A stretch of DNA of 64,000 nucleotides from assembly GCF_029892965.1 (NCBI RefSeq), contig NZ_JARXWN010000002.1, forward strand, positions 62,001-126,000, given 5' to 3'. This DNA comes from Dysgonomonas sp. PF1-14. GTDB lineage: Bacteria; Bacteroidota; Bacteroidia; Bacteroidales; Dysgonomonadaceae. Numbering within the stretch: the first letter of the stretch is position 1; the number at the start of each line of letters is the position of its first letter. The notes beneath the pieces were generated by a model. That model searched no databases and was not told where the DNA came from. It saw only the letters and a list, made by a program, of their open reading frames with translations. The position numbers and the translations under genes are program-made. Of the stretch, positions 13,650 to 61,475 are shown piece by piece.

Positions 13650-13797
13650 AATTAATGTTCTTTGATATTTTACCGATCTAAAGTTAGCTTTTTTCCATTT
13701 CATAACAGGAGGTTTTTTATATTTTATATCAATTATATGTTCGAATATCTTAAGCATAACTACTATCTAATTCTGATTTTCAAAGTTTGGTTCATTA

Positions 13798-14265
13798 CTA
13801 ACGCGCACCCCCGTGCTTGTTTTTACTTTTGCATCGCCCAAAAGTAAACAAAAGTCTAGTGCTTCGCTCCTCAGCGACCTGTCATCGGCTTGCCGGCTGA
13901 AAGGGACAAACGGGCTATCGCCCCATCCCTTTCCACGCCGCCTGCACCGGACAGGTGCCCGCTTGCGGAGCTAATGCACAGGGCCGCAAAGCGCTGACAA
14001 GGCAGGGTTATCGTCTCCAGATGGTGCGTCAGCCCTGCGCCGTTAGCTTTATGGACGGGGTACCCGTAGGGTGAGAAAGGCGTAAAACAAAAACGTGTTT
14101 GAGCTGAACTGTCGATTCGTATTATGCAAAAGTCGTGAGCGAGTTTTTTTGTTTAGCCTTTGAGCCCTTTAACGGGTCGTCCTATGAAGCGGGGCGCTAA
14201 AGCGTTTTGCTTACTTTACTGCTTTGGGTAAAGTATGGCAAGCAATTTTCAATTGCGCGCAGTAA
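13798..14265. repeat. G+C-rich foldback element, copy A (full length)
   Basis: A roughly 468-base non-coding segment, much richer in G+C than its surroundings, with related copies at 53971-54290 (3' end missing) and 61148-61400 (5' end missing). Its ends are imperfect inverted repeats: ACTAACGCGCAC...GTGCTTG on the left and CAAGCAATT...AATTGCGCGCAGTAA on the right. Each end carries two hairpins; on the left GCAC/GTGC and TTTACTTTTG (13823-13832)/CAAAAGTAAA (13840-13849); on the right TACTTTAC (14212-14219)/GTAAAGTA (14228-14235) and GCAATT (14242-14247)/AATTGC (14251-14256). The interior holds further short hairpins. The reading frames through it are not conserved between copies (stop codons differ), so it is not a gene. 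Confidence 0.9.
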
Positions 14266-14303
14266 TAAATCCAACATTTATTATACACATTTTCAAATAG
14301 TGA

Positions 14304-14333
14304 TTGTTTAATCTATTTATATTACTACTTTTG
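14304..14333 (+). promoter_or_regulatory. Putative satP promoter
   Basis: TTG (14304-14306), 19 bases, then TACTTTTG (14326-14333): the spacing and -7 box fit the Bacteroidota sigma consensus. The satP start codon is 25 bases downstream. Confidence 0.65.
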
Positions 14334-43310: not shown

Positions 43311-43553
43311 TATAGAAAAGTCGTATTGGTGGATATAGCCGAAACTCCGTAAAACAGGATTTGAGCGCTTCGATCCCTTTGTAATCCACTGTGCTATGCA
43401 ACCCGGAGGTGTGGCCCGCCATTAGAATCAAAAGCTTGTCTCGGATATTTTATTAATTGATGAGCTTCCCAATCGACCAACACGACTTAGAACTAGCTTT
43501 TTATTTCTTTATATCAAATTTACGCAAAACTATCGAACTATGCAAATATAGGA

Positions 43554-53624: not shown

Positions 53625-53970
53625 TTTTAACTAAAACCTTACACTTCTTACAAATTTTGTATTGTTTTATTGCTTGCTTTTCCCGTAGGGGCATCCCTTG
53701 CAGGTGCCTGCCTATATAATCAACGGGCAGGGACAAGCCGCTGCCCCTACAGTTCCATCCAACTTTTTAACTAAAGCCTTACAAAACTTACATCTTTTCT
53801 CCCATTTTGGCTTCGCCGTTTTTCTTCAAAGATCGCTTTTCTATCAATCGGATATAAGATTTTACGCCCCTACCTTTATAATTTATAACTCATACGAATC
53901 AGTAGTCGGAATTAATTGTTCAATTTGTATAACCTTAATCTTAGTCTGGAGTTAATAGATTTAGCTCATG
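53625..53970. repeat. Intergenic repeat block with TTTTAACTAAA words and GTAGGGGC palindrome, copy 3
   Basis: The 796-base gap after the kinase holds two TTTTAACTAAA-type words (53627 and 53763) on either side of a palindromic element 53685-53750, with ends GTAGGGGCA and TGCCCCTAC and inner GGCAGG/CCTGCC pairing. The same order (word, palindrome, word) occurs at 10547-10736. No gene is visible. The foldback element copy B follows. Confidence 0.75.
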
Positions 53971-54290
53971 ACTAACGCGCACTCTCGTGCTTGTTTTTAC
54001 TTTTTCATTGCCAAAAAGTAAACAAAAGTCTAGTGCTTCGCTCCTCTGCGACCTGTCAACGGTTTGACGGCTGAAGGGGACAAACGGGCTATCGCCCCAT
54101 CCCCTTCTACGCCGCCTGCACCGGACAGGTGCCCGCTTGCGGAGCTAATGCACAGAGTCGCACGCGCCGACAAGACAGGATAATCATCACCCAATCGTGC
54201 GTTAGTCCCGCGCCGTTAGCTTTATGGACGGGGCACCCGTAGGGTGAGAAAGGCGTAAAACAAAAACGTGTTTGAGCTTAGCCGTTGGTT
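53971..54290. repeat. G+C-rich foldback element, copy B (3' truncated)
   Basis: Starts ACTAACGCGCACTCTCGTGC and follows copy A closely through the G+C-rich interior up to the 'cgtgtttgagct' region, then stops matching near 54290. Its left hairpin is TTTACTTTTT (53996-54005)/AAAAAGTAAA (54013-54022); copy A has G/C where this copy has T/A, a compensated change. The right terminal repeat is absent. Confidence 0.88.
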
Positions 54291-54420
54291 CGTATAAATC
54301 ATAAATAAGCATTTTTCTCACTATATCTTAAAATATTTTTTAGTCTCAGTCGTCTTCAATAGTAGAGAGCTCTTAGTAAAAAATAGATTGTAAAATGTAA
54401 AACAAAAAAGAATTATAGCA

Positions 54421-60880: not shown

Positions 60881-61093
60881 CGCTTTTTATTGAAATTGAT
60901 GTAAAGAAACATATATGCAGGCTTTTACGAAATATTTTACTGATGAGGTTTATAATCGGGCAGATGAAGTTTAGTTTAAGGGGAGTGGGATAAAAATGAA
61001 GAATAGAAAAATTTATCTATAAGACGGAAAGAATTATAAATTATGAGTAATGCAAATCAGTATTTGAGATTATATGTTCGTTTATTGGTTACT

Positions 61094-61130
61094 AGTTACT
61101 TCGCCCTTTGGGCAGTTACAAGTTACAAGT
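61094..61130 (+). repeat. Short dispersed repeat AGTTACTTCG..., copy 1
   Basis: AGTTACTTCGCCCTTTGGGC followed by AGTTACAAGTTACAAGT. Nearly the same sequence occurs in reverse orientation at 63293-63330, so the two bracket a 2.2-kb region. The inner CGCCCTTTGGGC is palindromic. Confidence 0.75.
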
Positions 61131-61147
61131 AACCCCCTTTATTTATT

Positions 61148-61400
61148 GTCTCCAGATCGTGCTTTAGCCCGTGCCGTTAGCTTTATGGACGGGGTACCCG
61201 TAGGGAGAGAAAGGCGTAAAACAAAAGCGTGTTTGAGCTTAGCCGTTGGTTCGTATTATGTAAAAACCATGAGCGAGTTTTTTTGTTTAGCCTTTAAGCC
61301 CTTTTACGGGTCGTGCTATGAAGCGGGGCGCTAAAGACTTTTTGATTCCTTTTGCGGCTTCTGGCAAAAGGAATACAAGCAATCTATGATTGCGCGTAGA
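61148..61400. repeat. G+C-rich foldback element, copy C (5' truncated)
   Basis: Matches copy A from about 14010 to its right end. The right terminal hairpins are present: ATTCCTTTTGC (61345-61355)/GCAAAAGGAAT (61364-61374) and GCAATC (61379-61384)/GATTGC (61388-61393), both differing from copy A at paired positions. The left end is missing. It lies in the 765-base gap upstream of the YARHG pseudogene, whose remainder shows only AT-rich sequence and a terminator. Confidence 0.88.
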
Positions 61401-61475
61401 AAGAAATCGAACGTTTATTCAATACAATAACAAATACTGATTGGCATAAATAATAGGTAGCTATATAAAACGAAC

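Follow-up and report, generated by a model that had tools for sequence, protein, structure and literature searches.

A MITE family with a covarying G+C-rich interior in Dysgonomonas and its probable mobilisation by an IS982-like transposase

The window, a stretch of 64,000 nucleotides from Dysgonomonas sp. PF1-14, contains three copies of a dispersed repeat with a G+C-rich interior, the core of copy A having a G+C content of 52.4% against 40.5% for the window as a whole. A first-pass annotation of the sequence had described these three copies together with a set of paired changes in their stems, all of which are present, but the coordinates that it took for their full extent cover the interior only. 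When host copies are aligned with their flanks, similarity runs past the G+C-rich block into A+T-rich ends, and the mobile element is ∼390–600 bp in size, occupying 13713–14310 (copy A), 53892–54295 (copy B) and 61050–61447 (copy C), in each case on the forward strand. In the same alignment the left end opens with ATGC(G/C)AATCAGTA(G/T)TTGA, and the right end carries the reverse complement of this sequence. The terminal inverted repeat ATGCSAATCAGTAKTTGA lies at both ends of the element, and its pattern gives 79 matches compared with 11 for a reversed-pattern control. Between these ends the element consists of hairpins, in which no conserved reading frame is seen, arranged as a series of G+C-rich arms flanked by two mirror-image subterminal hairpin modules.

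Two forms with both ends occur in the host genome, a long form of ∼590–600 bp (591–598 bp in intact copies) and a short form of 390–407 bp, to which copy C and some dozen further copies belong. Alignment with intact long copies makes copy A a long form of ∼598 bp, with boundaries that are approximate because both outer terminal repeats have decayed; its right hairpin module (14198–14262, forward strand) is matched by the right-end covariance model R1 with an E-value of 9.9e-17. Copy B is a long form in which the left repeat ATACGAATCAGTAGTCGG is intact and the right end is the internal GGTTCGTAT, the 3′ part having been lost, as previously noted, apparently by a deletion between internal GTTCGTAT and terminal TTCGTAT. 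The same deletion is found in another copy (L014), whose full-length twin (L007) has the same flanks. Copy C had been read as lacking its 5′ part; it is instead a 398-bp short form with both terminal repeats (contig C2, 123050 on the plus strand and 123447 on the minus strand), and this short architecture has a left part and a left terminal repeat of its own, common to about a dozen copies; the right hairpin module of copy C lies at 61332–61399 on the forward strand (R1, E = 3.6e-20). The model, which was built from the right end only, also detects the left hairpin modules of copy A (13798–13860, E = 0.0036) and copy B (53972–54034, E = 0.00094) on the opposite strand, so the terminal modules are inverted repeats of each other, as the first-pass annotation had proposed; these matches, together with the ∼40 copies in the host genome, exclude chance as the origin of the resemblance. 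Two tiny palindromes made of terminal repeats only also occur in the host, one of 57 bp (C7:204692–204748) and one of 43 bp (C10:176344–176386) at L107 and L108, and another dispersed repeat, one end of which resembles AGAGYCTGTTTAAATTT, adjoins L022, L039, L108, and L111 and recurs in the host genome. Elsewhere in the window, Rfam assigns 43313–43487 (minus strand) to Bacteroidales-1, an RNA suggested to be 6S-like (136.8 bits, E = 9.4e-23).

The copy number given above comes from a search of the draft host assembly (4.58 Mb in 49 contigs), in which most copies are 79–91% identical to copy A. The element is present in 16 of 25 Dysgonomonas genomes, and the named relatives that carry it are Dysgonomonas species and termite-gut MAGs. 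The matches at L078 (G007) and L184 (Dysgonomonas sp. 521) are identical, which links the genus to Dysgonomonas. Each species is represented by one genome in these comparisons. Within a sample of 295 genomes from the order, the right-hairpin-module model was positive in three, namely the host, G009, and G156. The last of these belongs to another genus of the same family and has at least 17 MITE copies with the same ends, several of them with exact 5-bp duplications, and with an interior resembling the form found in D. alginatilytica, the central arm of which, taken in inverted orientation, resembles the host form at 77–80% over 44 bp. Relatives were found with a terminal-hairpin pattern where a central-core pattern gave none, neither in genome contigs nor in viral contigs, and a blastn search of phage and plasmid records did not match the element.

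Signs of transposition are seen at the flanks of the copies. Of 52 elements, 24 have the same 5 bp on either side, compared with 2.4 in shuffles and with other lengths at chance, and in a non-redundant set an exact 5-bp target duplication accompanies 23 of 45 elements (shuffled mean 2.3, maximum 9). One host copy between convergent genes (L004) has an empty counterpart in four sister genomes, whose divergence is that of separate species: the rejoined flanks are matched contiguously in G004 and G005, and the gap at the site in G006 and G011 is too small for the element. Among 16 host sites examined, the rejoined flanks of 13 are not spanned by an ORF of 90 codons or more. At four loci (L009, L031, L137, and L279), the insertion lies a few tens of bases 3′ of a putative intrinsic terminator.

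One sister genome contains a relative that shares the MITE ends and carries a transposase. The complete genome G019 contains a 282-bp element that has these ends and a transposase-like C-terminus (a 41-aa fragment that on its own gave no Pfam match), and its use as a query led to a 1064-bp element in G012 (L237, 211–1274) with the same ends, a TAATT duplication, and a single intact ORF of ∼300 amino acids. The encoded protein is a DDE_Tnp_1 transposase (Pfam) whose best NCBIfam model is IS982 (NF033520, E = 6.5e-34), although at 117.6 bits it scores under the curated threshold of 130; its relatives include plasmid proteins annotated as IS982 at 25–27% identity and an Aureibacter protein annotated as "transposase" at 42% identity. 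A frameshifted relative at 75% identity occurs in G011 and remnants occur in G016, G018, and G019, internally deleted relatives of the L237 element in the last two genomes keeping its ends. The sequence common to the MITE and this IS is limited to the terminal ∼18–30 bp, the interiors being different. In the host, no close homologue of the L237 transposase was found, and a search by element ends for an autonomous copy returned only MITE copies, solo ends, and the two tiny palindromes; a partner search in G156, for which that genome offers no positive control, was also empty. Two other candidates were rejected, as the best transposase homologue in the host (L244, 29% identity) is without the MITE ends and two ends lying 2.4 kb apart in G019 (L208) enclose ordinary genes and no transposase.

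The terminal repeats, the 5-bp duplications, the copy number, the empty orthologous sites, and the same-ended transposase element together indicate that the repeat is a MITE family, probably mobilised by an IS982-like transposase, a reading to which a probability of roughly 0.85 is assigned. On this reading, an IS982-like DDE transposase encoded elsewhere would recognise the terminal repeats (ATGCGAATCAGTAGTTGA...) and move the element, which would insert into A+T-rich intergenic DNA via a 5-bp staggered cut. The host copies may have been moved by the L237 transposase itself or by a similar one that has been lost or is unassembled. The interior is not transposase-derived and stays foldable through compensated changes, for which the likeliest reason may be that folding helps a copy to spread or makes it better tolerated in intergenic transcripts or during replication. 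Counting against mobilisation by an IS982-like enzyme are the lack of a close transposase copy in both the host and G156, the sub-threshold model score, and the shortness of the sequence that MITE and IS share. Because the host has no close homologue, the MITE may outlive its enzyme or the enzyme may come from outside, and with copies so diverged those in the host appear to be mostly remnants of past bursts. The first-pass annotation, which had suggested a non-autonomous foldback transposon, was thus essentially right on this point and is partly supported overall, having overlooked the actual ends along with the target duplications, the number of copies, and the partner; a dispersed structured RNA, which it had offered as the other possibility, is not needed as the primary nature of the repeat. 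A competing reading makes the repeat a relative of REP or IS200/IS605 elements, mobilised by a HUH transposase that recognises hairpins. It would suit the hairpin modules close to both ends and the position of some copies beside terminator-like hairpins, but it is very improbable, being already contradicted by the target duplications, which are clear and 5 bp long, by the inverted repeats at the termini, and by a partner enzyme of the DDE type.

The family is a new one of a known kind. The earlier statement that no named family fits stood insofar as Rfam gave no match over any copy at the gathering score, and a 1-kb locus carrying a complete copy gave none even at E-values of up to 1, but the kind of element is known, and an IS982-derived MITE, MITECca01 of Cardinium with ISCca4 as its parent, has been published (PMC9769881). 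Like MITECca01, the Dysgonomonas MITE has the terminal repeats of an IS, here an IS982-like one, and many copies in a Bacteroidota genome; MITECca01 is ∼240 bp long and is reported to derive from its parent IS (PMC9769881), whereas the element described here is 390–600 bp long, has an interior that is G+C-rich and bears no relation to the IS, and has no parent in the host. The BrickBuilt repeats and MITE239/464/700 of Porphyromonas gingivalis are likewise intergenic MITE-like repeats in Bacteroidales, but they have different terminal repeats (starting CCGAAAGG in one of the printed copies) and a 23-nt minisatellite interior, and no link to IS982 was found in the paper (PMC4596501). Hairpin MITEs such as QMITE2 of Coxiella are similar in their terminal and direct repeats, intergenic sites, and stable stem-loops in predicted transcripts (PMC10969869). 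A 2024 review describes stable folds and MITEs that are typically A+T-rich, with compensatory changes unmentioned (PMC10969869), and the strongly covarying G+C-rich interior of the Dysgonomonas MITE is unusual in comparison with the elements reviewed there. No paper on a Dysgonomonas MITE family was found in the literature searched.

The fold of the interior was assessed on whole elements and on alignments of the two halves. On either strand, the fold of a whole element is more stable than those of its dinucleotide shuffles, with z-scores of −4.0 to −14.5 (20 shuffles each). Across 47 right halves, 96.9% of the cells are paired compared with 37–49% when the alignment is slid, and both-sided changes occur in 20 of 73 pairs, giving 115 double-change cells against 29.7 in shuffles; across 39 left halves, 94.7% of the cells are paired, and both-sided changes in 24 of 66 pairs give 161 double-change cells against 54.0. 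The structures were derived from the same alignments, which biases the slid control (35–49% paired over all controls) in their favour for paired cells, and the double changes, whose counts were reached in none of 500 shuffles for either half, are therefore the stronger evidence. Long-range stems with branched interiors covary as well. On trees, ∼75 double Watson-Crick changes were counted, compared with 160 cases in which a change on one side alone departed from a Watson-Crick pair, and stems are kept far above chance overall rather than being broken as often as they are preserved. Paired columns also diverge less than unpaired ones (6.3% compared with 17.1%, and 10.2% compared with 17.8%), a contrast that could be inflated by misalignment of the loops.

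These data lean towards a fold that is under real constraint. The earlier claim that selection acts on structure draws support from the strong covariation and the lower divergence of paired columns, but it has an alternative in neutral template switching, by which one arm of an imperfect palindrome is copied onto the other and pairing is kept without selection. Such switching would bear on the fold alone and leave the identity of the repeat as a MITE untouched. Block changes in stems, for example CCTGTC/GACAGG in place of CCCACA/TGTGGG and GAAAGGGA/TCCCTTTC in place of GATGCAAA/TTTGCATC, are of the type that it would produce, and the overall symmetry of G-U and A-C intermediates is also in its favour. 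The lower divergence of paired columns is not predicted by homogenisation alone, however, and the covariation of the long-range branched stems also speaks against it, which leaves template switching as a sizeable but minority possibility.

A further explanation, that the MITE has been domesticated and that host selection maintains it as a structured regulatory RNA or DNA, with the fold acting as RNA, would account for the strong covariation, the folding z-scores, and the lower divergence of paired columns, but it is improbable. The orthologous sites of sister species are empty, Rfam contains no match, and promoter and terminator predictions in the surroundings of copy A do not exceed chance. 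Overall, stems show about as many G-U as A-C events (46 and 52), no one strand is favoured, and a reading as RNA of a single strand is not supported. The right half favours G-U (32:13) and the left half favours A-C (39:14), equivalent to G-U when the opposite strand is read; this opposite lean argues against one simple transcript, and the contrast between the halves has a P of 1.5e-5 by events, which are non-independent since copies may convert each other, and a marginal P of 0.05 by pairs. It is conceivable, albeit doubtful, that the interior is a selected two-armed structured nucleic acid whose mirror halves are read oppositely, for example as divergent structured RNAs or a cruciform, and that spread depends on the covarying fold besides the ends.

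Recognition of bacterial MITEs usually relies on the ends alone, with whatever lies between them treated as filler. The Dysgonomonas MITE has a geneless interior of several hundred bases in which many compensated changes have preserved a single fold from species to species, and its likely mobilising enzyme can be named. With dozens of mutually diverged copies per genome, it offers a natural experiment on whether selection or template switching during replication keeps palindromic parasites foldable. An element copy with both ends is present on a 12.6-kb IMG/VR viral contig (L207, 9093–9653), and phages or prophages may on that account carry the element around. The MITE also accounts for a dispersed repeat at contig ends in several assemblies; in the termite-gut MAG Hs463_bin56 (JAISKQ), many contigs start or stop inside the element (for example L118, L133, and L156), which indicates that the repeat breaks assemblies.
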